In this document: piece by piece, positions 4,131 through 29,695 of the stretch
Position numbering within the stretch: position 1 is the stretch's first letter
Layout: every line of letters begins with the position of its first letter
From: an uncultured Bacteroidales bacterium
GTDB lineage: Bacteria > Bacteroidota > Bacteroidia > Bacteroidales > VadinHA17
NCBI GenBank assembly: GCA_937871625.1
Contig: CALMRD010000342.1
Location: forward strand, 1-35,443
Direction: 5' to 3'
Length of the DNA: 35,443 nt
Position numbers and translations under genes: made by a program
The notes under the pieces: generated by a model
Told to the model about the DNA's origin: nothing
What the model saw: only the letters and a program-made list of their open reading frames with translations
Databases searched by the model: none

Positions 4131-6269
4131 CTATATTTTCACTTTCCCCATGATTTCGAGAAATGCAGGATCGGACCTCAGGTTCCGGTAAGATACTGTA
4201 TCCACATTCATCAATAACAGAAAAAACTCCTCCCTCTCTTCATATCCCCTCCTGAGATAATCCAGTGCTTCCCTGTTCAGGCCCACCTCTGCCATCAAAG
4301 TTCCTATCATACTCTGAGGTACAAATCCTGTCCTGTCCCTTTCTATCAATGTATCAAGCAACCTTCTGGTTTCATCCCGGGCACCTGATCTGCTGTATGC
4401 AACCCCGAGATGGGTGATCGCCAGTGGTGAGAAGCCTGAAAGTGTCTTCTCCAGCTCTTCAATCGACTTTGTGTACTCTCCCTCAAAAAGGTAAATTGCT
4501 CCCAGGTAATAGTGACAAACAGGGAGTTTTTCTGCCAGCTTCTCAAGGTGGGTTATGGCAGCTTCCCTTTGTCCTGCCTTATAAAGGTGGACAGCATATA
4601 AGCCATCTCTTGAAGAGTATGCCGGATCGAGGGCTAAGGCACGCTGGTCCCATTCAACTGCCTCTGCAAATTTTCCCTTGAAGAACGACATTTCAGCAAG
4701 GTACTTATAGACTTCGGGATTATTGGGTGCCAGTTCGAGAGCACGATTATAGTTACGCGCAGCACTCTCAATATCAAAGTAATATAACAAGTCTGCAACG
4801 CCAATACAGGCATAGGCATCAGGCAGCATGCTATCAAGTTCCAGGGCTTTATGCGCCAGTTTCACTGCCGGAGGGTAGGCCTCCGCCGGCCTCAGATTGG
4901 CATAAAACGCCAAAGTTCCGTAACAGGTTGCCAATCCGGTGTACGCCCTGGCAAATCCCGGGTCAGCTTCAATTGCTTTCTCAAACAGGGTCTTTGCTTT
5001 CCATAATGCTTCCGGAGTGCGCTGTCCGCGCAGATGCACTCCCAGGAGATAGTAATCGTAAGCTTCCAGGTTTTCAGAAGGAATTTTCTCAATCAGGTTT
5101 TTTTCTTCAGGTTTGATTACAGCTTTCAGCTCCTTTGCAACAGCCTGGGCCACCTCACTCTGAATGGCAAAAATATCAGAGATGTCTCTGTCATAAACTT
5201 CTGACCATAAATGTGCATCACTCCCGGCATCAATCAGCTGCACAGTTATCCGCACATTATTGCCCATCTTCCTGACACTGCCCTCCAGTATGGCTGACAC
5301 ATTCAACTCACGGGCTATTTCCTTTAATGACAGGGTTGTGTTTTTATAACTCATTGATGTTGTGCGGGAAATTACCTTCAGATCACCAATCTTAAAGAGG
5401 CGATCAATTATCTCATCAACCATGCCATCGGTGAAATATTCCTGCTCCGGGTCGTTGCTCAGATTGGCAAACGGAAGTACAGCGATAGATTTGTCAATTG
5501 CAGATGATATTCCCTTGGAGCTCCTGATCAGCGGGAGAAGGATCAGCAGAACGACAATCAGCGCAGATACCATTATGGCCGCAGTAACAGCTATTTTCCT
5601 CCACGGCATTTTCTTCTTTTCAGGTTTAATGCCATTGATTATTGTATCAACGGTTTGAGATTTTACACCCGGATTCTTAATCCCCTCCACAATCGCTTTA
5701 ACAGCATTGGCAACTTTATTGATCTGATTCCTGTACTTTGTCCTGTTCAGGTTTTTGTTTTCGTCATCATTCGGCGTAAGCGGCCTGTTGACTCCCGGCT
5801 CCTTATAGATGAATTCGACGCCCCGCAGCACTCCGCCTAAAACTGTTTCACATTCTTTTATATCTGAAGGGTCAAGATCATAAATGGTGACCGGCAGCAC
5901 CCTGCTTGCCACATTGCCGTCAGGCAACTTAATTTTCAATCCGAACTGATCGTGAGATGCCTGTTCCACAAACGCCTTGAACTCATGTTCCCAGGCGAAG
6001 GATTTCGGGTCGCAATAGGTACGGGAGATGATCGGGATAAATATCAGGCATTTGAGCTTTTCCTTTAAGGACTCATCCACATCGTGTGTTGCGAGCAGAC
6101 CGTCGCGAGGATTTATGTCAAAATAGACACTGATTTCTTCTTTAAAAGTAGCTTCGAGCTCCTTCTTCAGGTTTTCAACAAACTCCGTTACCCAGCCGTC
6201 ATACCTGTTGTCTTTCTGGCGATAGCTGATGAAGATGTCGTATTCATATCCGGGGATGAGGCTGGGCAT
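4131..6269 (-). CDS. TIR-TM-TolB-like-TPR protein B (712 aa)
   Basis: Paralogue B, apparently intact. The TIR domain is at 8-130 with W93-E-H-E96 retained, followed by the EPGVNRPL/YRNQINK segment. One membrane helix at about 226-248 (IAVTAAIMVSALIVVLLILL) is preceded by a basic KKKMPWRK. The TolB-like domain (about 259-395) is the textbook form of the COG5616 type: SIAVLPFANLSNDPEQEYF, later ILEGSVRK and LWSEVYDRD. TPRs run from about 410 to the end, closing with the usual LRSDPAFLEIMGKV. The TIR is predicted to face the cytoplasm, with the TPRs across the membrane if the helix is a simple anchor. The gene starts 35 bases after C. A TAACTTTA (6307-6300), like the -7 boxes of D and E, overlaps the stop of C, but the nearest TTG is 24 bases upstream instead of 20, so B may depend partly on transcription from C. 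Confidence 0.88.
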   Translation of the reverse strand: MPSLIPGYEYDIFISYRQKDNRYDGWVTEFVENLKKELEATFKEEISVYFDINPRDGLLATHDVDESLKEKLKCLIFIPIISRTYCDPKSFAWEHEFKAFVEQASHDQFGLKIKLPDGNVASRVLPVTIYDLDPSDIKECETVLGGVLRGVEFIYKEPGVNRPLTPNDDENKNLNRTKYRNQINKVANAVKAIVEGIKNPGVKSQTVDTIINGIKPEKKKMPWRKIAVTAAIMVSALIVVLLILLPLIRSSKGISSAIDKSIAVLPFANLSNDPEQEYFTDGMVDEIIDRLFKIGDLKVISRTTSMSYKNTTLSLKEIARELNVSAILEGSVRKMGNNVRITVQLIDAGSDAHLWSEVYDRDISDIFAIQSEVAQAVAKELKAVIKPEEKNLIEKIPSENLEAYDYYLLGVHLRGQRTPEALWKAKTLFEKAIEADPGFARAYTGLATCYGTLAFYANLRPAEAYPPAVKLAHKALELDSMLPDAYACIGVADLLYYFDIESAARNYNRALELAPNNPEVYKYLAEMSFFKGKFAEAVEWDQRALALDPAYSSRDGLYAVHLYKAGQREAAITHLEKLAEKLPVCHYYLGAIYLFEGEYTKSIEELEKTLSGFSPLAITHLGVAYSRSGARDETRRLLDTLIERDRTGFVPQSMIGTLMAEVGLNREALDYLRRGYEEREEFFLLLMNVDTVSYRNLRSDPAFLEIMGKVKI

Positions 6270-6304: not shown

Positions 6305-8365
6305 TTAATACTCCAATCCCAGTTTTCTCAGCAAAGCTATAAAGCGTGGTTCCGCCCGGAGGGATTTAAATGCAGGTTCTACATTCAGGTAGATATAATC
6401 GGTATCAAATTCGTTTACACTGGCTTCGATATAGTCCAATGCTTTCCCCTTATTCCCTCTCAGGGCATATAGAATCGAAATTATTCTTTTGGATAAAGGC
6501 GAGCTGGAAAGTGCATGAAATTCAAGCTCCAGATTAATAATAAAGTCAAGAAAACCATCTATGCCTGATATGTCATAAACCTCCTTCGCTCTATTTTTAT
6601 AAGCAACCAACGACTGATTATCATCTAAAATCTTTTGATATTCATCAATTGCCTCTGTAATGAGACCTTTCATGAAATAGCTTAAGAATGTATAGAAGCC
6701 CACCACGCTTACCGGAAATTCAGGGTCTAACTCTACTGCCTTTTTGCATTGAAAAATAGCTTTATCATAGGATTCAGCAAAATAGTACATAAGCCCACAT
6801 GCTCCGTTCTTTATTGCGGATAAGGGATCAAGCTTTACAGCCTGATTCATATGTTCGGAAGCTGCGTCAAATTTCCCGAACACAGTAAGAAAGAGTCCAT
6901 ACCATTGATGGGCCGAAGCATAATTTGGATTTAATGACAGAGCAGTTTGATAATATCCTTCCGCCTTTTTATAATTGCGTTCAAAGATCTCAGTAATGTC
7001 TGCCAGGGTTGCATAAGCCTCAGCAATATTACTATCAATCGACAGACTTTTCTCTGCATATTCCCGCGCTTTTTTAAAGGATATCTCAGGCTGCATGTAA
7101 TTCCAGTCTGCACAGACCATATAAGCATCAGCCAGTCCGGCATAAGCCAGGGCATACTTATCATCTGATTCAAGGGCCTTCAGGAAGTATTCAATGCTGG
7201 CCAGCAAACCCTCCCTGGTTCTTTTATTCCAGTAGTAGCGGCCAAGCATGTAGAGATCATATGCCCTGATACTTGATGTCTGCTTCCTTTCTTCCGGGTA
7301 TAATTTTACTTTCAGGGCTTCAGTGATTGAACGTGAAACCTTTTCCTGTATCTCAAAAATATTCTCTAGGTTCTCATTATATTTTTCAGCCCAGATATGG
7401 TAATCATAGGCAGCATCTATCAGCTGGGCTGTTATACGGAGGTTATTTCCGGCCTTACGGACGCTGCCTTCAAGCACATACCTGACTTTGACTTTCTCTG
7501 CAATTTCTTTAACTGTGAATTTTGTGCCTTTGAAAGTCATCGCTGAACTCCTTGAGATTACGAGGAGCTCATGAATATGAGACAGGTCTGTAATAATTTC
7601 CTCGGTGAGTCCGTCACTAAAGTATTCCTGTTCCGTATCGGAACTCATATTCTCAAAAGGAAGTACTAAAATAGATTTCTCATTCGCAGTAGGATTGTCG
7701 CTGGTCCGGAGGTCTTTTCTCAGCAAATTCCTTTTCTGAGCCGGTTCATTTTTCAATCCGGCCAAAATTTCATTTATGGCATTGGCGACTTTATTTATCT
7801 GGTTTCTGTATTTTGTCTTGTTCTGGTTCCTCCTATCATCATCATCAGGTTTTAGTGGCCTGTTGACGCCAAGCTCCCCGTAAACAAAATCAACACCTCT
7901 CAGACCTCCATCCAGCACTGATTCACATAAACTGATATCTGCTGTGCTCAGATCATAAATTATTACAGGCAGCACCCTGCTTGCCACATTGCCGTTGGGA
8001 AGCTTTACTTTCAAGCCGAACTGATCCTTTGATGCCTGTTCCACAAATGCTTTGAACTCATGTTCCCATGCATAGGAGTTCGGATCACAATAGGTGCGGG
8101 AGATGATCGGGATAAATATCAAGCATTTCAGTTTCTCCTTCAGGGATTCATCTACATCATGGGTCTCAAGCAGACCGTCATGCGGATTGATGTCGAAATA
8201 GACGCTGATCTCTTCCTTGAAGGTGGATTCAAGTTCAGTCCTGAGAGCCTCAACGAACTCACTCACCCATCTGTCGCCCTTATTGTCTTTCTGACGATAG
8301 CTGATGAATATGTCGTAATTATATCCTTCAATTATGCTTGACAACGGAGCACGGATTTGGTTCAT
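6305..8365 (-). CDS. TIR-TolB-like-TPR protein C, no membrane helix (686 aa)
   Basis: Paralogue C. Its TIR domain is identical to that of A over the shared repeat, including WEHE. The post-TIR segment is present but divergent (ELGVNRPL, YRNQINK). Unlike A, B, D and E there is no hydrophobic helix: a short polar linker leads directly into the TolB-like domain (SILVLPFENMSSDTEQEYF, then YVLEGSVRK and IWAEKYNE). TPRs fill the second half, ending LRAEPRFIALLRKLGLEY. C should therefore be soluble. The start is uncertain. An upstream TTG at 8371 falls inside the -7 box and cannot be used. ATG 8365 begins four bases after that box and would be nearly leaderless. TTG 8344 aligns with the ATG of A and would leave a leader of about 20 bases. 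I chose ATG 8365 provisionally. Confidence 0.85.
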   Translation of the reverse strand: MNQIRAPLSSIIEGYNYDIFISYRQKDNKGDRWVSEFVEALRTELESTFKEEISVYFDINPHDGLLETHDVDESLKEKLKCLIFIPIISRTYCDPNSYAWEHEFKAFVEQASKDQFGLKVKLPNGNVASRVLPVIIYDLSTADISLCESVLDGGLRGVDFVYGELGVNRPLKPDDDDRRNQNKTKYRNQINKVANAINEILAGLKNEPAQKRNLLRKDLRTSDNPTANEKSILVLPFENMSSDTEQEYFSDGLTEEIITDLSHIHELLVISRSSAMTFKGTKFTVKEIAEKVKVRYVLEGSVRKAGNNLRITAQLIDAAYDYHIWAEKYNENLENIFEIQEKVSRSITEALKVKLYPEERKQTSSIRAYDLYMLGRYYWNKRTREGLLASIEYFLKALESDDKYALAYAGLADAYMVCADWNYMQPEISFKKAREYAEKSLSIDSNIAEAYATLADITEIFERNYKKAEGYYQTALSLNPNYASAHQWYGLFLTVFGKFDAASEHMNQAVKLDPLSAIKNGACGLMYYFAESYDKAIFQCKKAVELDPEFPVSVVGFYTFLSYFMKGLITEAIDEYQKILDDNQSLVAYKNRAKEVYDISGIDGFLDFIINLELEFHALSSSPLSKRIISILYALRGNKGKALDYIEASVNEFDTDYIYLNVEPAFKSLRAEPRFIALLRKLGLEY
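7963..8329. repeat. 367-bp perfect repeat, copy 2 (TIR coding region of C)
   Basis: This is the second copy of the block at 2022-2388, same orientation, 5941 bases apart, without a mismatch in my comparison. Identity begins and ends sharply inside the coding sequence of C, and both flanks have diverged. Confidence 0.95.
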
Positions 8366-8368
8366 TAT

Positions 8369-8401
8369 CAAATTTAAACCAATAGCAAGCTAAAAGCAAA
8401 A
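8369..8401 (-). promoter_or_regulatory. Promoter of TIR gene C (-33/-7 type)
   Basis: On the minus strand TTTTG (8401-8397), 20 bases, then TAAATTTG (8376-8369), a full TAnnTTTG. It aligns with the promoter of A, including GATAATGAAC directly after the box. The position shows that a start at 8371 is impossible and limits the leader to about 0-20 bases. Confidence 0.7.
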
Positions 8402-17200: not shown

Positions 17201-18775
17201 TCAGGACAGTGCCTCTGCCCTGAGGCTTTTCAGAGTTTCGTTAAATGACCTGCAAAGGAGCTGATGATTCTCCTCAATATCTGCTTTGCTCTTCATCTTA
17301 TGTTTCTGTCCGTCTCTCAGATAGTCTCCCGATTCGTAATAGTCAAAGAATCCGGTCATGGTTTCAGCCAGGAAAAGATTGCTCTGAGCGACTGTATCCC
17401 TGTATCTTGTCCGGCACTCCTCCCTGGTAATGGTTGAATTACCAAAGTAGTCGGAGACTGCCAGCCAATTCCTCACCCATTTTGCGAGGTTAACAACTCC
17501 CTGCGAACCCCACAGCCACTCTGCAAGGCATTCTGTAACAGCTGACCAGCAGGCATCAAGTGATTCACTTCTGAGGTTATAATCGAGATACCCCGGTCTG
17601 CCCTTGAGTCTGCCCTGTTCTCTCAGCTCTCTCACAAGTTTAGTGCTGAAGTATGGCATCAGTTTAAGAAATGTTATTGGTGCAGTGCCATTGCTGCAAA
17701 CCTTCTCAAGGAATTTCAGATTTTCCCTGAGTGATTTGAAGCTTGTTTCAGGCTGGAACATCATCATGCCGTAATCATAACCGATATCAAGTCTATTAAG
17801 TGTCTCAACAGCAGCGGTGCCTGTCGTTGCTCTCATCCTTTTGTTGAGACGTGTCAGTCCTTCGTCAGTTCCGTCCTCCAGCCCCAGGAAGACCAGAAAG
17901 AGGCCATGCTTTTTCATCAACAGGAAAGTATCCGGGTCTACCTCATCAGGTCTGCAGTTAATCTTCCACATCACCTTGTTGTGTAGGCCAATACGTTCCA
18001 GCTCACTGCAAAATGATTTAATCCAGCTATTTCCGTCTGCACATTTCACCGGGAAGTCGTCATCCTGAAACAGAAACACGGTACATCTCTTTTCCGTGTA
18101 AAGCTGATGCATCTCGCGTATAACCATTTCAGGACTCCTGATACGTTTTACCGGGCCGCCTGCCTGCCGGTAGAACTCCCCCGTATTGCAGAATGAGCAG
18201 TCATATACGCATCCCCTGCCTGAAATGATAGTTGTGAACTTCCTTCCCGGTGCATACTCTCCGGGAGGCTTCCTGACAGGAAAAGGGAAGCTGTCAAGAT
18301 CCTTTTCGAGCTTCCTGAGAGGTGTCGTGACAATATGACCGTCTTCCCGGAATGCTATGTTTCTGACTCTTTTCCAATCGTTGTGAGCCAGGAGACATTT
18401 AACCAGTTCAAGGAAGGTATACTCGCCTTCAAACCGGACTATGGAATCCAGTTCCGGTATCAGCCGGAAAAGTTTATCCGGATGCAGACTGGCATAATAT
18501 CCGCCGGCAGTAAAGTGACAATTGATACCGCCTTTCCTCAGGTACCTGGCAAGATGAGCAAACTCTTCGATGAAAACCTCAAATATCACCGAGAATCCGA
18601 CAGCAACAGGATCATGTCTTCTGATGCAGGCCAGGATCTCCTCATTATCATACCTGAGATCAACCATCCTCGATTCCATGCCTGCCGTGTTCAGTACAGA
18701 CCTGAGGTATCCCACCCCCAGATTTTCTTCTTCTCCGAAGGCAACCAGAAAGACGGGATGTGCAGAGATTCTCAA
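17201..18775 (-). CDS. Cobalamin-binding-type radical SAM enzyme
   Basis: A 524-residue class B-like radical SAM protein. Residues 1-150 form a B12-binding-like Rossmann domain (LGVGYLRSVL, VGFSVIFEVF, TAGGYYASLHPDKL, VRFEGEYTFLELV). The DxHxxG cobalamin ligand motif is absent, as in many BchE-like members. The radical SAM motif CVYDCSFC supplies cysteines 189, 193 and 196, and the core continues through FLFQDDDFPV and VFLGLEDGTDEGL. The last 130 residues are a distinct helical extension. Members carry out methylations, cyclisations and other radical reactions, and the substrate here is unknown. The start codon overlaps the stop of the preceding 71-codon gene by four bases (ATGA), so the two are translationally coupled, which makes that small protein a candidate substrate or partner. 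Confidence 0.9.
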   Translation of the reverse strand: MRISAHPVFLVAFGEEENLGVGYLRSVLNTAGMESRMVDLRYDNEEILACIRRHDPVAVGFSVIFEVFIEEFAHLARYLRKGGINCHFTAGGYYASLHPDKLFRLIPELDSIVRFEGEYTFLELVKCLLAHNDWKRVRNIAFREDGHIVTTPLRKLEKDLDSFPFPVRKPPGEYAPGRKFTTIISGRGCVYDCSFCNTGEFYRQAGGPVKRIRSPEMVIREMHQLYTEKRCTVFLFQDDDFPVKCADGNSWIKSFCSELERIGLHNKVMWKINCRPDEVDPDTFLLMKKHGLFLVFLGLEDGTDEGLTRLNKRMRATTGTAAVETLNRLDIGYDYGMMMFQPETSFKSLRENLKFLEKVCSNGTAPITFLKLMPYFSTKLVRELREQGRLKGRPGYLDYNLRSESLDACWSAVTECLAEWLWGSQGVVNLAKWVRNWLAVSDYFGNSTITREECRTRYRDTVAQSNLFLAETMTGFFDYYESGDYLRDGQKHKMKSKADIEENHQLLCRSFNETLKSLRAEALS

Positions 18776-19021: not shown

Positions 19022-21481
19022 TTATAATGAATTGCTCAATTTTTTGGTCATTATCTTAAACTCGGGTGTTTCTGTCATGCTTTTCCATGTGGGATCAACT
19101 TTCATGAGATTCATTGAGAACCACGAAGGATTGGTCAGCAGATATTCCACCTGTCGGATCGCATTGGGATAATCAGCGGTCATGGCATAGATCTTGGCCA
19201 GGTTGATGATCAAGTCATTTTTTACCAGGTTGTCATCACTGGCAAGCTGCACTGCGGTTTTGCCGGCTATGACTGCATCGGTTGCATTTCCCAGGCCTGC
19301 ATAGGTCAGGCCGCAGCAGCTGTATGAATACCAGTCGTCAGGATTTGACATTATCATCATCTTATAGACACGGAGGGCAGAGTCATAGTAAGACCTTGTC
19401 ATCTGTTCATTGTTGAGGAGGCTGTATGCCGTTGCTGTTGTGAGGTATCTCAGCCCGGGATACTCATAGTCACCATCTGTTGACGACAGTACTTCATTCA
19501 GGGCATTATTATAACTACCCTCGTAGATATTCAGAAGGATCTTATAATATTTCTGTCTCTCACCTGTTCTTCTAATGACAGTATCGAGCACTTCTCTGGC
19601 CTTCACAGTATTTCCGTCCTTCAGAATGAATGCTTCCATCATGTTGGTATATGGTCCGGACCAGTCAGGCATTACCTCCGTCGCCTTCCGAAAGAAGGCT
19701 ATGGCTGTGTCATAGCTGTGCATATAGGCAAAGGAGCTGCCTATGTTGATAAGTACCAAGGCGTCCTGTGGTTCTTCTTCGATAACCTCTCTTACCAGCT
19801 CCTGTGATCTGTTCCAGTCACCCATTTTACGGTATACCATAGCCATGTAGAACAGGGGATGGTAATTTGCCGGGTCCATCTCCCCGGCCATTCTGAACTG
19901 GGAGAGGGCTTCATGATAGTCTTCGATGCAGTAATAGTTATAGAATCCGAGTGCCACCCGGGCATCCGGCAGGTCGTTCTCCAGCTCCAAAGCTCTTTCA
20001 GCATCAGCCTTGCATTTGTCGACATGTGACGGATCCAGCTGTCCGGTATAGTAACCCCATGATCTTGCAATGGCACGCCTGGCATAAGCCAGGGCAAATT
20101 CAGGGTCCTCGTCTATTGCCCTGTCATACATTTCGATTGCGGCGGCAAAGCTGATAGAGTCAACAAACTTATTTCCTGCCAGCAGATAGTATAAGGCATT
20201 ATCAGACAGAACATTGGCTTTCAGGTAGTCTTTGTATGCGCCCGCGCTTCCGGTAGGATTCTTCTCAATTCGTGCCTTTTCTTCAGGTGTGAGTACTGTC
20301 TCAAGTATTGCAGCAGTTTTAATGGCAATGTCTGTCTGCATCCCGTGAAGTGCATCCCATGTCCCTTCAAAGACATCACTCCACAGTTGTTCATCCATCC
20401 TCACACTGATGAGTTTGACAGTGATCCTTACAATCTCATTGAAGATCTGATAGCTGCCCTCAATAATGTAGTTGGTTCTGAGTTCCTGCCCAATATCCGG
20501 TATTGATTTGGTGGCTGCCCGATATTTCATAACAGAGGTTCTTGGCCTGACAACAAGGTCATTGATTTTGCACAGCTGCGAGATGACCTCTTCAGTCAGC
20601 GCATCTCCCAGCCACAGATTATTTTCATCAGCACCTATACTTTCGAAGGGCAGGACGGCAATGGATTTTTCTTCCAGTTTACCTGCTGCTGACATATTGC
20701 CGATGAATTTGGACAGGGCGAACAACAAGGCAGCTGATGCCACAATTATCATGAAGGTGATAAGAGCACGGCGCGAGGCAACCGATCTTATAGTGGTCGG
20801 TTTCTCCTGAAGCCTGGCTACTGTTTCAGGTTCTTCCCATGGCTCTCTCCGTCCATGTTTTTCTTTATGTGGCGGAGGATTCTCTGACTGCAGGGCGGAG
20901 ACTATCTCCCTGATGGCATTGGCCGTTTTGTTTATCTGGTTGCGGTATCTTGTGCCGTACTGGTTTTTGTGTTCATCATCAACCGGGGTCAGGGGCCTGT
21001 TGACCCCGGGTTCCCTGTAGATGAAATCAATAGCCCGGAGTACCCCTCCGATCTCGTTTTCTATCAATTCCCTGTCTTCACTGTCGAGCTCATGTATCCT
21101 GACAGGCAGTATCCTGCTTGCCACGTTACCGCTGTGGAGGGTAACCTTCAGTCCGAGCCTGTCGGCCGAGGCCTGCCTTATATAAGCCCTGAACTCATGT
21201 TCCCAGGCGAATGATCTGGGGTCACAGTAAGTACGCGAGATGACCGGAATGAAGATCAGACATTTGAGTTTTTGCTTCAGGGATTCATCGACATCATGGG
21301 TGTCAAGCAGTCCGTCATGCGGATTGAGGTCGAAGTAGACGCTTATCTCTTCTTTGAAGGTTGCTTCAAGTTCAGCCCTGAGATGATCAACGAATTCAGT
21401 AACCCAGCCGTCATACCTGTTGTCATTCTGACGGTAGCTGATGAAGATGTCATACTCATATCCCGCTATGAGAGAAGCCAT
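19022..21481 (-). CDS. TIR-TM-TolB-like-TPR protein D (819 aa)
   Basis: Paralogue D, the longest member and intact. TIR domain at 8-130 (DIFISYRQNDN, with W93-E-H-E96), then EPGVNRPL/YRNQINK, then a long charged linker and one membrane helix at about 240-258 (ITFMIIVASAALLFAL). The TolB-like domain starts at SIAVLPFESIG (about 273) and continues through YIIEGSYQIF and LWSDVFEG to about 400. At least eight TPR-like units follow (for example AAIEMYDRAIDEDPEFALAY, TAIAFFRKATEVMPDWSG). Tyrosine is unusually frequent in the TPR part. The gene has its own promoter 20 bases before the ATG and lies 147 bases after E. The 71-codon gene follows by 34 bases, so D and the radical SAM pair may be cotranscribed. 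Confidence 0.88.
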   Translation of the reverse strand: MASLIAGYEYDIFISYRQNDNRYDGWVTEFVDHLRAELEATFKEEISVYFDLNPHDGLLDTHDVDESLKQKLKCLIFIPVISRTYCDPRSFAWEHEFRAYIRQASADRLGLKVTLHSGNVASRILPVRIHELDSEDRELIENEIGGVLRAIDFIYREPGVNRPLTPVDDEHKNQYGTRYRNQINKTANAIREIVSALQSENPPPHKEKHGRREPWEEPETVARLQEKPTTIRSVASRRALITFMIIVASAALLFALSKFIGNMSAAGKLEEKSIAVLPFESIGADENNLWLGDALTEEVISQLCKINDLVVRPRTSVMKYRAATKSIPDIGQELRTNYIIEGSYQIFNEIVRITVKLISVRMDEQLWSDVFEGTWDALHGMQTDIAIKTAAILETVLTPEEKARIEKNPTGSAGAYKDYLKANVLSDNALYYLLAGNKFVDSISFAAAIEMYDRAIDEDPEFALAYARRAIARSWGYYTGQLDPSHVDKCKADAERALELENDLPDARVALGFYNYYCIEDYHEALSQFRMAGEMDPANYHPLFYMAMVYRKMGDWNRSQELVREVIEEEPQDALVLINIGSSFAYMHSYDTAIAFFRKATEVMPDWSGPYTNMMEAFILKDGNTVKAREVLDTVIRRTGERQKYYKILLNIYEGSYNNALNEVLSSTDGDYEYPGLRYLTTATAYSLLNNEQMTRSYYDSALRVYKMMIMSNPDDWYSYSCCGLTYAGLGNATDAVIAGKTAVQLASDDNLVKNDLIINLAKIYAMTADYPNAIRQVEYLLTNPSWFSMNLMKVDPTWKSMTETPEFKIMTKKLSNSL

Positions 21482-21628: not shown

Positions 21629-24064
21629 TCAATGCCTATTGAAGTATTCATCAAGCAGAGCCTGGAAGCGGATGTCAAACTGCAGTGCTGACAGGTCAGG
21701 ACTGGCTTTCAGCATGTAGAGATCCCTGTACCCGTTTTTAAGGGCTAGTTCAATATTTTCAAGGGCTCCGGGGATATTACCCTGTATGCAGAAAACCCTT
21801 GCAAAGGAATAGTATTGTGAAGAATCCAGGTCTTTAGCTTTCTGAAGCATCTGCCGGGAGATGTCCATCTCGCCCATACGTGCCGTAACAGCAGCCAATG
21901 AAGTGTAGGTACCATAATAGTCAGGAAATGCCTTAGTCCATTTTCTCTCTGCTATTTCTCTGAACTTCTGAAAATTACTCTGGGCTTCCGGCTGATTACC
22001 CATTGCCTCATTATTTACCCCAAGATCATAGTATGCAGGTGCCTCTCCGGGATACCTGGTGATGATTTCTCCGAGCACGGCCATCGCTTCTGAATAATTA
22101 TCCAGTCGCAGGTAAGCATAAGCGAGCCTGTATTGATTCATTACAATATCAGGATTGAGCCCGAAAGCTTTCTGGAAATACCCAATAGCCGTAGCAATAC
22201 TATCGCGGCAAAACCATGCAGATCCCATGTAAATGTACCCCCAGGGATTTTCAGGATTATCGGAAATCATTTTTTCTGCCCAGACAATCAAAGAATCGAT
22301 TTTTCCCAGGTACTCTTCATATATCCATAAAATTGCCGCATATGACAGTGCCTGATCAGGATTAATACTGACCGCCTTCTTGTATTCTTTCAATGCAAGT
22401 TCGTAATGGCCGGACTGCTGATGATACCAGCCAAGGTTATTATGGACGGTCGGATCATCCGGATACAATCTCTTCAGAATATCCATATTGGCAATGGCCT
22501 TATCATTATCATTTTCCACATGCTCAGCATAAAACGCCGTGATGCTGTACTTTTCCCTGTCAGTAAGGTTTTCAGCATTTTCCAGCGCCTCACTGAGAAG
22601 TTCCTTACCTTTCGGATCATTGAACTTCTCGAGCAGTATGTTCCCCAGTGATGCTTTTGCCGCAGTAAAACCCGTATCAATATTGAGTGCATTCTCATAA
22701 TATTTCCTGGCGTTTTTAAAATCGGCAAATAGGTGACTCTCTATCGCCAGGGAATATTGTTGCAGGGCTTTCAGGGAAGAGGTGGTAACCTTCGCCAGAG
22801 GCTTATCCTGTAAGGATATTTGATACCTTGATTCACCAAGGTCCCGGCGGATCTTCCTGCTCAGCTTGTCAATTGCGGGCAGTATCTCATCCTGTGTCCT
22901 GGCATACAGCACCTCAGACTTCAAAAGGTCTCCGGTCTCTGTGTCAATGATCCTTGCCGTGATGGCATATTGGTTTCCGGCCTCGCTTATGCCGGGCACT
23001 ATCAACAGGCCTATCCCTTCCCTGACAGAAATTTCCCTTCCCGTTATCTCATCAACAGATATTTGATCTTTCATCTCCATTCTTGCCAGGGTCTCAATCA
23101 TTCTTGATCTCGTGAAGACATTGAGATAACGTGACTGCCCTGCACTGAGTGAGAATGCAGTATAAAGCGATTTGTCGAAAACCGGATTATCAGTAAGGTT
23201 TTCAAAATCAGTGATCAGAATCCAGTCGCGTTTGGAGAATGGCAATGTGCTTCCGCCGGTGAAGAGATAGATGGCAATAAGTGCCAGTACTATTAATGAG
23301 GAACCGGATGTAAGAGCCAGCTTCTTATTCCCATGAGAGGGGGGGGTGTCTTTGCGCAGGCTATCTGTTGAGGCATCTGGCGGTGTAGCCGGATCGGGAT
23401 CGCCTTTTCCGGAAATGTCGGGTGTGGCGATTTCAGTTTCCTGATCTTCTGTACCGGACACCGATGCACTTATCAGGCCGGAAATCACTTCATCAATTGC
23501 GTTTGCTGCCTTGTTGATCTGGTTGCGATAGCTTATTTTGTGCAAATTCTTTTCCTCTGAGTCCCTGGGTGTAAGAGGACGATTTACGCCAGGTTCGGAA
23601 TAGATAAACTCAATGGGCCTGAGAAACCCTCCCAGAACATTTTCAACAAGAGACCTGTCCTCGGCTTTCAGTTCATGAATCTGAACAGGCAGCACTCTCA
23701 TGGCAACATTGCCTCCCGGAAGTTTCACCCTGAGTCCGAACCGGTCATTGTTGGCCTGCTCCATAAATGCCCTGAACTCATGCTCCCAGGCGAATGAATT
23801 CGGATCACAGTAGGTGCGGGAGATGACAGGAATGAAGATCAGGCATTTGAGTTTTTCCTTAAGGGTAGCATCAACATCATGTGTCTCAAGTAATCCATCA
23901 TGAGGACTGATGTCGAAATAGACGCTGATCTCCTCTTTGAATGTAGCCTCCAGCTCGCTCTTCAGATGTTCGACAAACTCCGTCACCCAGCCGTCATACT
24001 TATTGTCTTTCTGGCGGTAGCTGATGAAGATGTCGTAGTTGTATCCGGGGATCAGGCTGGCCAT
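21629..24064 (-). CDS. TIR-TM-TolB-like-TPR protein E (811 aa)
   Basis: Paralogue E, intact. TIR at 8-130 with W93-E-H-E96, then EPGVNRPL and YRNQINK, then a long Pro/Asp/Thr-rich linker (about 200-247) and one membrane helix at about 250-268 (SSLIVLALIAIYLF). The TolB-like domain (about 280-400) is the most divergent of the family: it begins WILITDFENLTDNPVFDKSL and lacks the AVLPF form, resembling instead the FENLTxxxxxD-type start seen in serine/threonine-kinase-linked TPR proteins. TPRs run from about 420 to 790 (ALKEYKKAVSINPDQALSY, EAMAVLGEIITRYPGEAPAY), ending LQFDIRFQALLDEYF. It has its own promoter inside the 119-base gap after the RyR-SpoIIE gene. The divergent sensor part beside a nearly invariant TIR suggests a different input for the same output. 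Confidence 0.88.
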   Translation of the reverse strand: MASLIPGYNYDIFISYRQKDNKYDGWVTEFVEHLKSELEATFKEEISVYFDISPHDGLLETHDVDATLKEKLKCLIFIPVISRTYCDPNSFAWEHEFRAFMEQANNDRFGLRVKLPGGNVAMRVLPVQIHELKAEDRSLVENVLGGFLRPIEFIYSEPGVNRPLTPRDSEEKNLHKISYRNQINKAANAIDEVISGLISASVSGTEDQETEIATPDISGKGDPDPATPPDASTDSLRKDTPPSHGNKKLALTSGSSLIVLALIAIYLFTGGSTLPFSKRDWILITDFENLTDNPVFDKSLYTAFSLSAGQSRYLNVFTRSRMIETLARMEMKDQISVDEITGREISVREGIGLLIVPGISEAGNQYAITARIIDTETGDLLKSEVLYARTQDEILPAIDKLSRKIRRDLGESRYQISLQDKPLAKVTTSSLKALQQYSLAIESHLFADFKNARKYYENALNIDTGFTAAKASLGNILLEKFNDPKGKELLSEALENAENLTDREKYSITAFYAEHVENDNDKAIANMDILKRLYPDDPTVHNNLGWYHQQSGHYELALKEYKKAVSINPDQALSYAAILWIYEEYLGKIDSLIVWAEKMISDNPENPWGYIYMGSAWFCRDSIATAIGYFQKAFGLNPDIVMNQYRLAYAYLRLDNYSEAMAVLGEIITRYPGEAPAYYDLGVNNEAMGNQPEAQSNFQKFREIAERKWTKAFPDYYGTYTSLAAVTARMGEMDISRQMLQKAKDLDSSQYYSFARVFCIQGNIPGALENIELALKNGYRDLYMLKASPDLSALQFDIRFQALLDEYFNRH

Positions 24065-24183: not shown

Positions 24184-26013
24184 TCAGATCCTGATTCCTA
24201 TGATGGTAATGTCGTCAGTCTGGTCTTCATCTTTCTCCTCACGCCATCGGTCAAATTCTTCATAAAGAATGTCACCCTGCTCAGGCATGGGATATTTATT
24301 GATCTTCAACAGCAGATCACGGAGTCTTTTCCAGCTATACCGCCGGTGACTGCCGCCCCCGAACTGGTCGGCAAACCCGTCAGAACATATATAGAGTGCG
24401 TCATGCGTGTTCAGGCAAAGAGTTTTTGTTGAAAAGCTGTAAGTGCCATTTTTGAAGTGATCTTCCGAAACAGTGCCTGAAAGATTGCCGGAGATCTTTC
24501 CGTCGGAAACATGAAAAATGGCATTACCTGCACCCGAATATGTCAGTTTCCCGGTGTTGGTATCAAGATTACACAGGATGATTGTCATGTCGTCTGACAC
24601 GGCAAGTTCTGCGGTATCCTTCCGCAGGAATCTGCGGATGCCTGAATAGAGATGGCTGAGGGCTTCAGCAGGGTCGGTTATCCTAAGGATATTTACTGTC
24701 TGATCAAGTATTCCATATCCAATTGTGCTTATAAGTGCAGCCGGGATGCCATGTCCGGTACAGTCGGCGAGGCCAAAAATCACATGACCATCATGTCTGC
24801 TGAAGAAGTAGAAATCGCCACTAACAATATCCTTGGGTTCAAAGAGCAGGAAGCTTTCAGGGAAGCACTCCCTGATTGACAGATTGTCAGGAAGGAACGC
24901 TTCCTGTATGTGCCTTGCGTAGTTGTAGCTGCCCTCCACCTCACTCAGAGAAAGCCTGATCTTCTCGTCAATTGAGGTGAGTTTTTCACTGATCAGCGGG
25001 GAGTTTTCAGCCAGCAGGTTAATACCGGCACTAAGTTCATTTGTGCCTGAAAGAAGCTTATAGATGCTGCTCTGGGGTTTGATGGCATACGACAGCTTGC
25101 TGATCCGGTCAGGTGAGACAGGGTAGGCTTCATATCTGATATCCCGGAGTATGGCAGGTGTCAGTCGCACCAGCTCACGGTCCTTTTCTTTCTCGTCTTC
25201 ACTGAGCTCTGCATAAGGCACCAGGCTGGGGTGTATCTTCTTTCGTTCGTCCCTTTTTATCCCGGTCTTCCATCCGTTAAGCCTTTTCTCCCAGCTCCAC
25301 CTCAGATGCTCGACCCTTGCCATTGTCTCAATCTCCTGATCATTAAGATGGAGAGCCCGTGGTTTGTAGCCCTTCCTGACCGGTCTTATCCTGTAACCTA
25401 TGGCCAGTAATCTCGTTGGTATATGAAAGGCATTGTCAATGTTTGACCGGAGGATCTCATCCGGCAGATCATCAAACTCAGTCATGCCTGGGAGGATGGT
25501 GCCGGATGTGCCGGCCCCCTGTTTCTTTATCTCGCGAAGGTAACTTGCATGAACAGCCCTGGCGATTTTCATTAAAAGGGATTTGTTCACACCTGCAATC
25601 TCTTCCTGCCTGATGATCTCGTATCCGGCTTTTTTAAGACTGGCAGGGATCAGATAGTTCAGTTCGCGGAAAAATTGCCTTCTGTCAGCGGTATGAGACC
25701 CACCGGGCAGGCTGTCAAGATCCATCTCAACAAGAGTGGTTATCTCCTCCTCAGTGATTATGCATGTCCGGCAGAAGTCCCGGTACAGCCTGAGATGCAA
25801 TCCCAAAGCCTGGAGTTTTTGAGGTATCCCTGCCGCATAGTTAATCCAGAACTGCCTATCTGCTTTCCATGGATCTGCAAGTTTCCTGTGCTGAGCGGCG
25901 GCGGCCTGTATTATGTTAGTCCTTCTGCAATCATTAAGAAGACTCTGCGCAACACTTTTGGCCTGAAACTTTATAAAATCTGCCTGATCGGTAAATCCGT
26001 CTTCAGGTTTCAT
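24184..26013 (-). CDS. RyR domain-SpoIIE PP2C-type phosphatase fusion
   Basis: A 609-residue predicted cytoplasmic signalling protein. Residues about 175-290 match the RyR domain first defined in ryanodine receptors and known in bacterial ligand-sensing and conflict proteins: ARVEHLRWSWEKRLNGWKTG, then HPSLVPYAELSEDEKEKDR. Residues about 365-609 are a SpoIIE/PP2C phosphatase with the metal ligands in place: SGDFYFF (D400), ADCTGHG (D417), CSDGFAD (D545) and DDITIIG (D600/D601). A helical connector (LISEKLTSIDEKIRLSLSEVEG) joins them. Its likely substrate is the phosphorylated SiaC protein encoded by the preceding gene, which it overlaps by four bases. RyR in place of the usual HAMP or PAS input suggests control by a nucleotide-like ligand, which is inference. 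No kinase of the SiaB type is visible in the window. Confidence 0.88.
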   Translation of the reverse strand: MKPEDGFTDQADFIKFQAKSVAQSLLNDCRRTNIIQAAAAQHRKLADPWKADRQFWINYAAGIPQKLQALGLHLRLYRDFCRTCIITEEEITTLVEMDLDSLPGGSHTADRRQFFRELNYLIPASLKKAGYEIIRQEEIAGVNKSLLMKIARAVHASYLREIKKQGAGTSGTILPGMTEFDDLPDEILRSNIDNAFHIPTRLLAIGYRIRPVRKGYKPRALHLNDQEIETMARVEHLRWSWEKRLNGWKTGIKRDERKKIHPSLVPYAELSEDEKEKDRELVRLTPAILRDIRYEAYPVSPDRISKLSYAIKPQSSIYKLLSGTNELSAGINLLAENSPLISEKLTSIDEKIRLSLSEVEGSYNYARHIQEAFLPDNLSIRECFPESFLLFEPKDIVSGDFYFFSRHDGHVIFGLADCTGHGIPAALISTIGYGILDQTVNILRITDPAEALSHLYSGIRRFLRKDTAELAVSDDMTIILCNLDTNTGKLTYSGAGNAIFHVSDGKISGNLSGTVSEDHFKNGTYSFSTKTLCLNTHDALYICSDGFADQFGGGSHRRYSWKRLRDLLLKINKYPMPEQGDILYEEFDRWREEKDEDQTDDITIIGIRI

Positions 26014-26420
26014 TGCATCTCTGATTCAATGAATTCGAAAGGCAGGTCAACAATCTGTGCCATTTCCCTGCCGGCTTCAAGCATGTCATCATCATCCTTT
26101 ACGTAATACCATCTGGCGGAAGCCTTAATATTTTGGGCATGCAACCTTGCCAGTATCTTGCAGATATCAAGTATGCACTTTGCTGATCCGGAATTGAAAT
26201 AATTGAAATTAAAATTGATCATAACTGGCTTGCTGTTGTCATCCGACCTCAGCAGAGACTCACTGAAATCGTTCAGCCAATCAAGTATCGGGTAGTAAAA
26301 CTCCCTTACATCCTGTGGCCTGGACTCACCCTCAATCTCCAGAAAATGCTCCTCGTGGTCAAGGATGACCCTGGGTGTAAAGACTGTGGGGCTTATGATC
26401 AGCTTTTCCATGGGGGTCAT
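26010..26420 (-). CDS. siaC: SiaC-family regulatory phosphoprotein (DUF1987)
   Basis: A 136-residue STAS-like protein. The family hallmarks are FTPRVILDHEEHFLEIEGESRPQDVREFYYPILDWLND near the start (read in two parts: ILDHEEHFLEIEGESRP and REFYYPILDWL) and FNYFNSGSAKCILDI, whose Ser/Thr-rich turn corresponds to the phosphoacceptor region. In Pseudomonas aeruginosa SiaC is phosphorylated by SiaB, dephosphorylated by the PP2C phosphatase SiaA and activates a diguanylate cyclase. Here only the phosphatase partner is adjacent, with an ATGA overlap, so the output must be elsewhere or different. Starts at 26420 or 26411 (MEKL) are both possible; neither has a clear Shine-Dalgarno sequence. The gene is divergent from the TerB-ABC gene across 191 bases. 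Confidence 0.88.
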   Translation of the reverse strand: MTPMEKLIISPTVFTPRVILDHEEHFLEIEGESRPQDVREFYYPILDWLNDFSESLLRSDDNSKPVMINFNFNYFNSGSAKCILDICKILARLHAQNIKASARWYYVKDDDDMLEAGREMAQIVDLPFEFIESEMQ

Positions 26421-26533
26421 CCGGCATGTATGCGGAGAAAGGACATGCAGTTATCTTCAGACTTGTTTAAAGGAGCGATAATCTGAAAATATTTCTCCGG
26501 ATACATTTTAATTACTAACTTGAAATTCTTAAA

Positions 26534-26541
26534 CAAAGATA
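26534..26541 (-). promoter_or_regulatory. Candidate -7 box of the siaC operon
   Basis: TATCTTTG on the minus strand fits TAnnTTTG exactly, about 115 bases before siaC, but no TTG lies at the usual -33 distance. The 191-base divergent region must also contain the promoter of the ABC gene, which I cannot place. Confidence 0.35.
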
Positions 26542-26611
26542 ACATTCTGATTTAATTTTAGAAGTCAGAGTTTTAAAAGAGCATTTGCTGCCAACATAAA
26601 CTCCCCGAAGA

Positions 26612-29600
26612 ATGAGCGAGCCCATTCTGAAAGCACTGATCCGTTTATTTGCCCTGATAAGTGATATTCACCCTGACCGGGAGATATCGAGCAGGGGACG
26701 GGATGTGGTGAGGCTGTTCCTGTCAAAGCACCTTAACAATGAGCAGGTGGCAAAATATCTGACAATGTTTGATGAATATCTCAGGCTATACTATCCTGAC
26801 GTTATTTCGAAAGACAGCATCAGGGACAGGAAGCGGACCTCGCTGACAGCAATGAGGATCCTTGCCATCTGTGAGAAGATTAATGAGGAGCTCGAGCAGA
26901 AGCAGAAGATATATGTGCTGGCACAGCTGATGGACTTTATCTCTTTCAGTGCCGAGATCACCGGGAAGGAGATGGAGTTTCTTGAGACAGTGGCTACGGC
27001 ATTTAATATTCACCAGACTGAATACAATGATATTCTGGGCTTCATCCTCGAACCCCACCAGGTCAGCATCAGAGATGAGAGGCTGCTGATCATCGACAGC
27101 CGGGAAGCATCTGACAGGCAGAAGATTAAGCACCTTTGCAATGAGAACCTCAAGGGCCGACTGCTTTTCCTGAATGTTGCAAGCACCAATACCCTTCTGA
27201 TGAAGTTTAATGGCAGGGAGGATCTTGTGCTGAACGGGCAGAATATTTTTCCGGAACAGACTTATGTGTTTGACCACGGGTCAACAATCAGGGGTGCCTC
27301 TCTGAATGCTATTTACTATAACGATGTTGCAGAGGTCTTTACAGGGGCGGAGTTCAAGCTCAGGGTTGCCCTCGATGCCACGGATATCAGCTTACGGTTC
27401 AGAAACAGTGAAAACGGTGTACAAAATCTGACTATCCACGAGGAATCGGGGAAGCTGGTTGGGATAATGGGAGGGAGCGGCGTCGGGAAATCGACCCTGT
27501 TGAATCTCCTTAGCGGAATTTTCATGCCGGAGACGGGGAACGTGCTTATCAACGGGTATGATATTCATACATCCGAAGGTAAGGATCACCTGAAAGGGGT
27601 AATAGGGTTTGTGCCCCAGGATGATCTTCTTTATGAGGAACTGACCGTCTTCCAGAACCTCTGGTACAATGCCCGCATGTGTCTCAACAATTACGGCGAG
27701 TCTGCGATCAGGGAGGAGGTTGAAAGCATACTGAAGGATCTTGACCTTTATGAGATAAAAGATCTGAAAGTGGGCAGTCCTGTCAACAAGATAATCAGCG
27801 GGGGCCAGAGAAAAAGACTGAATATTGCCCTTGAGCTTATCAGGGAACCGACCATACTTTTTGTCGATGAACCCACTTCAGGGCTTTCATCGGTTGATGC
27901 GGATACGGTAATGACCATGCTCAAGGAACAGACCTACAAGGGGAAGCTGGTTATTACAACGATACATCAGCCGGGATCGGATATCTACAAGATGTTTGAC
28001 CGTATAATGATCCTTGACAGGGGTGGCTATTTGATTTTCTATGGCAATCCCAACGAAACTGTAACCTGGTTCAAGACCCACACTAACCTGGCCAATGCTC
28101 TTGAAGATCAATGCATCAACTGTGGCAATGTGGATACCGACCAGCTGCTTCGTATCATTGAATCCAAAGTGGTCAACGAGCATGGCAGGCCCACTCATCT
28201 GAGAAGAGTCTCACCAGCAGAATGGGCCGACCTGTACGAGGCAGAGAAAGGCAGCAAACAGCGCGGAAAAACAATAACCCGTGACCCGTTGCCTGAAAAT
28301 AAATATTCTATTCCCGGGCTGGCAAAACAGTCGGCAATCTTTTTTATGAGAGATCTCTTATCCAGGATTGCTGACAGGCAATATATGATTGTCACACTGC
28401 TTGGAGCGCCTCTTCTGGCAGTCCTGCTTGCCTTTTTTACCAGGGATGTATCGGGGCAGGCCTATAGCTTAAGTGAGAACGAAAACCTGCCGGCATATAT
28501 GTTCATGTGTGTTGTTACGGCGTTTTTCATGGGACTGATCCTGAGTGCCGAGGAGATCGTTAAAGACCGTAAGATCCTTAAGCGGGAGTCTTTTCTTAAG
28601 CTCAGCTGGTTCAGCTATATCAATTCCAAGGTAATGATGATGTTCATTATCTCTTCGTTACAGACGATAGCTTTCGTGCTGGCCGGGAACCTTATTCTTG
28701 GGATTAACGGGATGACTCTCACATACTGGATTGTACTGTTCAGTTCCTCCTGTCTTGCCAATCTGATAGGCCTGAACATCTCATCTGCATTCAACTCGGT
28801 AGCCACGATCTACATTCTCATACCCTTTATAATCATACCGCAGCTTCTGTTCAGCGGCGTCCTGGTCAAGTTCGACAATCTCCACAGGAGGGAGGGCACT
28901 GTCAATGAATATGTGCCTGTTCTTGGTGATCTGATGCCTGCCCGCTGGGCATACGAAGCTCTTGCCGTGGAGCAGTATAAAAGCAACAGGTTTGAAGAGA
29001 AGTTTTTCATGTATGATATGGAGATCAGCCAGAACAACTGGTATGCATCATTTCTGACAGAGGCTCTCCGGAGAGATCTTTGGGTGTGCCGCAATTATTA
29101 TGACAGTTCTGAGTACAGGGACGTTGTTACGGACAACTTTGGGAAAATCACACGGTACATTCAGAAATTGTCTGTTCTTGCCGGTTTTGATCCTCCCCCC
29201 AATGAGCTTATCAGATCACTGAACAGTGACGGGTTTGATCCTTCTGTAGCTGAGATGATGGAACATTTGCTTGACAGCCTGGCAGACAGATTTAAAACTG
29301 TCAGGAACATCAACATGGCTAAAAAAGACTCAGTTACCGCAGTACTGATAGCAAAAATGGGCAAGAGCGCATTCCTGGAGCTTAAAGAAAATTATACCAA
29401 CAAGAGGCTCCGGGAGATACTCCTTGATGAGTACAATACGACCAAGAGTATTGAAACCAGGGGGAAGATCATTCAGAAGTATGAGCCTGTTTACATGAAG
29501 CCTGTATCCGGGAACGGCCGTGCGCATTTTTATGCACCGTACAAGAAGATAGGGAACATATTGGTTGACACCTTCCTCTTCAACATCATTGTACTCTGGC

Positions 29601-29695
29601 TTGTCTCCCTGGTACTTTACCTTGCCCTCTACCTGAAGGTTTTAAAGAAGATTACCGGCTCCGGGTTCGCTATCAGGAATGTCAGGAGGCGGTAG
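26612..29695 (+). CDS. TerB-like domain-ABC transporter fusion (ABCG-like half-transporter)
   Basis: A 1027-residue protein. Residues 1-145 are helical and resemble the TerB/tellurite-resistance fold (LKALIRLFALISDIHPDREIS, then LAQLMDFISFSAEITGKEMEFLETVATAF). A region of about 100 residues (150-250) looks FHA-like or beta-rich. The ATPase has Walker A GGSGVGKST (287-295), Q-loop FVPQDD, signature ISGGQRKRLNIA (395-406), Walker B ILFVDEPTSGL (415-425) and the switch TIHQPG. The ABC2-type membrane domain follows from about 590 (MIVTLLGAPLLAVLLAFF, FMCVVTAFFMGLILSAEEIV, IYILIPFIIIPQLLFSGVLV), with a large soluble loop before the last helix (IIVLWLVSLVLYLALYLKVL). The architecture is ABCG-like, with ATPase before permease. 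Substrate unknown. It is divergent from siaC. Confidence 0.88.
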   Translation: MSEPILKALIRLFALISDIHPDREISSRGRDVVRLFLSKHLNNEQVAKYLTMFDEYLRLYYPDVISKDSIRDRKRTSLTAMRILAICEKINEELEQKQKIYVLAQLMDFISFSAEITGKEMEFLETVATAFNIHQTEYNDILGFILEPHQVSIRDERLLIIDSREASDRQKIKHLCNENLKGRLLFLNVASTNTLLMKFNGREDLVLNGQNIFPEQTYVFDHGSTIRGASLNAIYYNDVAEVFTGAEFKLRVALDATDISLRFRNSENGVQNLTIHEESGKLVGIMGGSGVGKSTLLNLLSGIFMPETGNVLINGYDIHTSEGKDHLKGVIGFVPQDDLLYEELTVFQNLWYNARMCLNNYGESAIREEVESILKDLDLYEIKDLKVGSPVNKIISGGQRKRLNIALELIREPTILFVDEPTSGLSSVDADTVMTMLKEQTYKGKLVITTIHQPGSDIYKMFDRIMILDRGGYLIFYGNPNETVTWFKTHTNLANALEDQCINCGNVDTDQLLRIIESKVVNEHGRPTHLRRVSPAEWADLYEAEKGSKQRGKTITRDPLPENKYSIPGLAKQSAIFFMRDLLSRIADRQYMIVTLLGAPLLAVLLAFFTRDVSGQAYSLSENENLPAYMFMCVVTAFFMGLILSAEEIVKDRKILKRESFLKLSWFSYINSKVMMMFIISSLQTIAFVLAGNLILGINGMTLTYWIVLFSSSCLANLIGLNISSAFNSVATIYILIPFIIIPQLLFSGVLVKFDNLHRREGTVNEYVPVLGDLMPARWAYEALAVEQYKSNRFEEKFFMYDMEISQNNWYASFLTEALRRDLWVCRNYYDSSEYRDVVTDNFGKITRYIQKLSVLAGFDPPPNELIRSLNSDGFDPSVAEMMEHLLDSLADRFKTVRNINMAKKDSVTAVLIAKMGKSAFLELKENYTNKRLREILLDEYNTTKSIETRGKIIQKYEPVYMKPVSGNGRAHFYAPYKKIGNILVDTFLFNIIVLWLVSLVLYLALYLKVLKKITGSGFAIRNVRRR

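Follow-up and report, generated by a model that had tools for sequence, protein, structure and literature searches.

A RyR-SpoIIE phosphatase gene linked to TIR genes in Bacteroidales and a proposed TIR-driven partner-switch circuit

The closest described relatives of the locus reported here are the SiaABCD switch of Pseudomonas aeruginosa and the TIR-based Thoeris systems. In the former, SiaB phosphorylates SiaC on Thr68 and SiaA dephosphorylates it (PMC7278518); input reaches SiaA through membrane segments and a HAMP domain (PMC7647112), and the output is the diguanylate cyclase SiaD. In Thoeris, phage infection prompts a TIR protein to produce an ADPR-type signal, and an adjacent effector with a nucleotide-sensing SLOG or Macro domain responds to it. 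Two further systems bear on the comparison, namely, the phage RyR-fold protein RyDEP, which is used against TIR and cleaves 2'/3'cADPR (PMC13232231), and the Swarozyc/DUF4062 TIR-like NADases, which act by NAD+ depletion (PMC13174449).

The window, by which we mean the whole stretch of DNA analyzed, comprises 35,443 nucleotides from an uncultured Bacteroidales bacterium (contig CALMRD010000342.1). With SiaABCD it shares a SiaC protein, a SiaA-type PP2C phosphatase and, fused to SiaC in a sister genus, a SiaB-type kinase. In contrast to SiaABCD, the phosphatase carries RyR in its N-terminal region, a Ser stands in place of Thr68, no cyclase is found among the window proteins scanned, and the constant partner is an ABC exporter, with TIR genes attached; the window proteins also stay short of the curated equivalog cut-offs for SiaA and SiaC. 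As in Thoeris, a TIR gene lies beside a gene for a protein with an effector domain and a likely sensor of ADPR nucleotides, but the candidate sensor is RyR, the effector is a partner-switch protein phosphatase, and the TIR-TPR proteins are mostly membrane receptors. PADLOC and NCBIfam named no window protein as Thoeris. The locus resembles Thoeris in its layout and Sia in its switch, yet it lacks defining features of both, with no Thoeris family match, no SiaD, and no HAMP input. RyDEP has the same RyR fold and the same four ligand residues with the same spacing, but here the RyR protein is bacterial, phosphatase-fused, and encoded beside TIR genes. Genes of the Swarozyc type neighbor other RyR effectors in related bacteria, whereas the TIRs of the window are of a different type.

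Layout of the locus and the proposed circuit

The features of the locus are as follows.

442..2403, minus strand: TIR-TPR copy of the same TIR type (TIR region 73% identical)
4131..6269, minus strand: TIR-TPR copy of the same TIR type (TIR region 74% identical)
6305..8371, minus strand: TIR-TPR copy 3, same TIR type (TIR region 72% identical; no clear membrane segment by hydropathy)
17201..18775, minus strand: B12-binding radical SAM gene (Pfam; position conserved)
19022..21481, minus strand: TIR-TPR protein 2, paralog of TIR-TPR protein 1 (74% identity over the first 200 aa)
21629..24064, minus strand: TIR-TPR protein 1, with TIR, one hydrophobic segment near aa 249, and TPR repeats (fold, hydropathy)
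24184..26013, minus strand: RyR-SpoIIE (PP2C-type) phosphatase, 609 aa (Pfam RyR and SpoIIE above cut-offs; orthologs in 19 genomes)
24184..24984, minus strand: SiaA-like phosphatase portion of PP2C/SpoIIE type, about aa 344-609 (NCBIfam SiaA, 6e-47; motifs)
25114..25584, minus strand: Repeat12-like tandem RyR region, about aa 144-300, holding H236, W239, H261, and D278 (alignment; fold match to RyR Repeat12 structures)
26010..26420, minus strand: SiaC family phosphoprotein (Pfam SiaC; candidate phosphosite Ser77)
26421..26611, no strand: intergenic spacer separating SiaC from the divergent ABC gene (layout; presumed promoters)
26612..29695, plus strand: divergent ABC exporter with ATPase and ABC-2 membrane domain (Pfam; proposed SiaC-controlled output)

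An earlier note on this DNA had placed SiaC and RyR-SpoIIE, coupled by ATGA, upstream of TIR genes on the same strand, and its coordinates proved exact: the ATGA overlap joins the two genes on the minus strand, and the gene for TIR-TPR protein 1 begins 120 bp downstream of RyR-SpoIIE, followed by that for TIR-TPR protein 2. Five TIR-TPR copies lie in the window, and a B12-binding radical SAM gene is the regular neighbor after the TIR-TPR genes. Promoter and terminator scans were near chance level, with no promoter identified in 26421..26611.

The phosphatase has Pfam RyR (PF02026) at aa 228-284 (E 7e-15; 55.5 bits versus a cut-off of 27.4) and Pfam SpoIIE at aa 408-608 (E 1.9e-18). The best match of aa 344-609 is NCBIfam SiaA (6e-47) at 160 bits, against a cut-off of 700 for full-length SiaA, and the PP2C motifs SGD, DCTGHG, SDG, and DD are intact in the window protein and largely kept in its orthologs. 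The earlier note's reading of RyR in place of a HAMP-type input, with no visible cyclase, agrees with these domains.

We lean, with moderate confidence, toward reading this locus as a TIR-driven partner-switch circuit that runs from a TIR nucleotide through RyR, the PP2C phosphatase, and SiaC to the ABC transporter. The TIR-TPR proteins, mostly single-pass membrane receptors, would answer a cue and turn NAD+ into an ADP-ribose-type messenger. Binding of this messenger by the RyR region would alter the activity of the attached phosphatase, which would take the phosphate off SiaC Ser77 against a SiaB-type kinase, and dephosphorylated SiaC would then engage its target, for which the divergently transcribed ABC exporter is the likeliest candidate. 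The gene layout, the domains, the intact motifs, and the conserved linkage are observed, and we infer TIR catalysis, the identity of the messenger, the sign of regulation, SiaC as the substrate, and the exporter as the target. Of the models considered, the complete chain as far as SiaC and the exporter has the best support and is offered as a proposal.

If it holds, a TIR pathway would act by dephosphorylating a protein reversibly, and not by depleting NAD+ or killing the cell. RyR would be named as a bacterial sensor for TIR-made nucleotides. That RyR domains should be examined together with cADPR signals is urged in the phage RyDEP work (PMC13232231). The circuit is small, such that rebuilding it in vitro would need three or four proteins. 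We did not find such a use of TIR signaling in the literature examined, which stops short of a 2025 preprint by Yirmiya et al. that surveys TIR systems and might include RyR effectors, and its novelty is provisional.

The SiaB/SiaC switch and its exporter

The SiaC protein of the window, one of 8 encoded in its genome, matches Pfam SiaC with an E value of 2.2e-31 (108 bits; cut-off, 24.5) and scores 60.7 in the NCBIfam SiaC equivalog model, below the cut-off of 150. Its Ser77 aligns with Thr68 (in NTSS) of P. aeruginosa SiaC and is conserved across all orthologs, all of which also keep a YFNSxSxK stretch. On this alignment, Ser77 is a candidate phosphosite.

The earlier note saw no SiaB kinase, and the window indeed holds no SiaB gene, but the kinase belongs to the module. 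At seven loci of the sister genus (L081-L087), SiaC is about 300 aa long, and its N-terminal extension is a SiaB-family kinase; the four fused SiaB domains scored all exceed the curated cut-off of 85 bits, at 92-110 bits. Such a fusion places kinase and substrate in one protein. A search for a SiaB-like kinase elsewhere in the genome, as the note had proposed, found SiaB-family sequences on two contigs: on C128, a SiaB-family gene adjoins a canonical SiaC, and on C14 (L065 826-2118), a 4.7-kb contig without SiaC, one protein carries two SiaB-family domains in tandem. Given the SiaC fusion in the sister genus and these sequences in the window's own genome, both kinase and phosphatase are part of the module, and in the window's genus a SiaB-type kinase presumably acts in trans. 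The note's interpretation is partly supported: it stands as regards the co-occurrence of TIR and RyR, but the SiaB kinase has to be added to the module, and it made no mention of the divergent ABC exporter.

That exporter is the most constant neighbor of SiaC. In the two genera, each RyR-SpoIIE locus that extends far enough has it beside SiaC; the exception is locus L088 of genome G024, where ABC, SiaB, and SiaC stand together as a unit of their own more than 100 kb from RyR-SpoIIE and TIR. Exporter paralogs also adjoin SiaB/SiaC without RyR on the window genome's own contig C128 and in G065, G078, G024, and G094; in G094, which belongs to another family, a separate SpoIIE phosphatase is also present. 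About 10 other loci with the ABC gene had no SiaC beside it. Because SiaB/SiaC travel with the exporter without RyR, the exporter is the best candidate for the SiaC output, a role assigned from its neighborhood only. These arrangements suggest an older SiaB-SiaC-exporter switch onto which the RyR phosphatase and the TIR receptors were added.

We had also considered the ABC gene as a TIR-specific effector and dropped this idea, as the SiaB/SiaC-ABC unit occurs without TIR or RyR. A specific ABC exporter of 1000 aa is seen with SiaB/SiaC, with or without RyR, at window 26612-29695, at L058 8815-11889, and at L245, L247, L250, and L252, which makes it a candidate output of Sia switches in Bacteroidales.

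Linkage of RyR-SpoIIE with TIR genes and the TIR-TPR proteins

Co-occurrence was sampled in 147 related genomes. RyR-SpoIIE was found in 19 of them, all from one Bacteroidales family, and 17 of these 19 have a TIR gene within 2 kb of it, usually in the order ABC transporter, then on the other side SiaC, RyR-SpoIIE, and TIR-TPR. Among 393 genomes across the order, no full-length RyR-SpoIIE was found outside the family, and a scan of the contig collection found only 8 loci, all in Bacteroidales MAGs. Throughout the window's genus this order, continued by the B12-radical SAM gene, is kept on every contig of sufficient length, while the outer flanks vary. Of the two remaining loci, one (L084) reaches the end of its contig 1.2 kb on, inside a truncated TPR protein resembling the C terminus of TIR-TPR, and around the other (L087) about 9 kb are free of TIR genes, which lie elsewhere in that genome. 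The earlier note had called for just this search and held that a lack of co-occurrence, or constant company of ordinary stress genes around the pair, would speak against the proposed TIR link; neither pattern emerged, and other RyR effectors also proved to lie beside TIR genes.

Within the genus, the TIR type is present in 11/11 genomes with RyR-SpoIIE and missing from 10/11 without (Fisher p 3e-5, inflated by shared ancestry), and the family-wide counts are 17/2/8/61 (Fisher p 2e-10, likewise inflated by shared ancestry). In 8 genomes of the family, TIR-TPR genes are present but RyR-SpoIIE is not; 2 of these have weak matches only. Better controls than these counts are two cases. In G024 (L088), the gene 62 bp beyond a RyR-SpoIIE that is about 39% identical encodes a different TIR (Pfam TIR_2) with TPRs. 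In G718, from another family, the window's TIR-TPR type lies directly behind a TrkA_N-RyR protein. Some of the search profiles were derived from the counted loci; the Pfam matches (TIR_2 in G024, the other RyR effector loci) are independent of them. Gaps of about 110 bp between RyR-SpoIIE and TIR were counted against assuming co-transcription, and part of the sister-genus loci encode TIR on the other strand.

One alternative is that RyR senses a common adenine nucleotide (ATP or ADP) and that the TIR genes are a separate matter, the cluster being held by descent and chance. Most RyR-SpoIIE orthologs do share ancestry and belong to two genera. In addition, structures of the human RyR3 Repeat12 contain ATP or ADP. 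However, TIR genes are rare, with a few hundred across the 147 genomes, each of about 3.3 Mb, and the share expected by chance within a 20-kb neighborhood is about 1%, an approximate value in which DUF4062 is not counted. The pairing also recurs with different TIR types and with different RyR effectors, and we regard this alternative as very unlikely. The genetic linkage of RyR-SpoIIE and TIR is well supported and all but certain.

The TIR domain itself is divergent. Neither Pfam nor PADLOC gave a TIR match for TIR-TPR protein 1, and searching the PDB by sequence yielded no relative of the domain. Its AlphaFold model (pLDDT 84.9), by fold comparison, matches the TIR folds of RUN1, PdTIR, SARM1, and BtTir. 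E96 is invariant in 29 TIR-TPR sequences, and we propose from this alignment that it may be the catalytic Glu. It lies three residues after a conserved Trp, as against four in several TIR_2 neighbors, and with so divergent a domain this spacing means that NADase activity is not assured. Most TIR-TPR proteins have one hydrophobic segment near aa 225-260 by hydropathy, which is absent in some (copy 3 of the window, both copies of L082). The chassis that follows is known to NCBIfam from cyclase proteins, so that TIR occupies the place of the cyclase in related proteins.

Another alternative is a TIR without enzyme activity that works by protein contact, with SiaC binding TIR-TPR as it binds SiaD in Pseudomonas and TIR serving as the output. 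In the known system SiaC targets SiaD, a nucleotide enzyme encoded along with it (PMC7278518), and here the SiaC and phosphatase genes precede the TIR-TPR genes. Against such an output stand RyR-SpoIIE and TIR in G024, which sit more than 100 kb from SiaB/SiaC, the pairing of TrkA_N-RyR with the same TIR type, and the occurrence of TIR-TPR genes without RyR-SpoIIE. We consider it distinctly improbable.

RyR as a candidate sensor of TIR products

The AlphaFold model of the region before SpoIIE (pLDDT 80.8) has the tandem Repeat12 fold of ryanodine receptors, and its best fold matches include a human RyR3 complex with ATP. H236, W239, H261, and D278 are invariant in the alignment of 20 RyR-SpoIIE orthologs, with spacings from H236 (+3, +25, and +42) that equal those of H75, W78, H100, and D117 in phage RyDEP, the residues that contact the ligand in the RyDEP structure (PMC13232231). 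A TIR nucleotide product is likely to be what RyR senses, which fits both the conserved ligand residues and the RyDEP biochemistry.

As RyDEP cleaves its ligand, the RyR region might instead degrade or mop up TIR products and so end the signal, with regulation of the phosphatase indirect or nil. The catalytic pair of RyDEP, H75/D117, is conserved as H236/D278. Yet when 8 other phage RyDEP homologs were tested, 6/8 bound 2'/3'cADPR and 0/8 cleaved it (PMC13232231), showing that proteins with the same residues bind without cleaving, and the fusion of RyR to many different effector domains in related bacteria fits a sensor. Degradation in place of sensing has, in our estimate, only a slim chance of being right.

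Those fusions extend the linkage to TIR beyond the phosphatase. At all 12 other RyR effector loci found in the relatives (TrkA_N-RyR, RelA_SpoT-RyR, AAA-RyR, and others), a TIR gene or a gene for DUF4062, a TIR-like NADase (PMC13174449), lies within 0.7 kb. Phylum- and order-wide samples add about 15 further RyR-TIR/DUF4062 loci, some up to 3.6 kb apart, and the four ligand residues are retained in most RyR domains of the other effectors. The adjacency of such varied RyR proteins to TIR/DUF4062 suggests that RyR is a general sensor of TIR products. Two groups differ: nearly all loci of an AAA-RyR clade (about 890 aa) lack a TIR neighbor, one having DUF4062 1.8 kb away, and a small RyR class (about 100 aa) has no TIR nearby (L232, L235-L238, L243).

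The same neighbors raise the possibility of a Thoeris-like anti-phage defense, in which TIR-TPR would sense infection and its nucleotide would activate RyR-SpoIIE, leading to growth arrest or cell death. SiaC and the exporter would be the route to that end, so that the molecular steps are those of our main model and the purpose differs. TIR/DUF4062 genes beside TrkA_N, RelA_SpoT, and AAA effectors look like defense operons, and one TIR neighbor of another RyR effector has weak Thoeris matches. Nevertheless, PADLOC gave no Thoeris match among the window proteins, the SiaC-exporter unit exists without TIR, and many TIR-TPR copies with one RyR gene per genome fit a signaling hub. Sister-genus genomes hold up to about 20 TIR-TPR copies, and the window's own genome has only one RyR gene. 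Many TIR-TPR receptors with one RyR hub fit signaling at least as well as a simple defense operon, and we judge a defensive purpose unlikely. Returning to the signaling circuit, a broader version appears possible and is put forward tentatively: several TIR-TPR receptors would feed an ADP-ribose-type messenger to one RyR phosphatase and thereby to the SiaB/SiaC switch, with RyR as a general bacterial sensor of TIR products serving many effectors. This broader version would also provide a bacterial parallel to the animal ryanodine receptors and their long-disputed connection with cADPR.

NCBIfam and PADLOC named none of the scanned RyR effectors as Thoeris parts. Across Bacteroidota, RyR is joined to TrkA_N, RelA_SpoT-SLOG, or AAA beside TIR/DUF4062 at L155-L166, L177, L186, L189, L190, L225-L228, and L240. 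The AAA-RyR clade (L178 and relatives) has two RyR repeats and comes from one Bacteroidota genus. The small RyR proteins adjoin proteins of 660-740 aa with a C-terminal RyR, and the one scanned has a weak RCK-like match. At L165 (6474-10770), genes for a TIR_2-TPR protein, TrkA_N-RyR, and a PD40 propeller lie in a row with short gaps, possibly a compact TIR-RyR defense operon.
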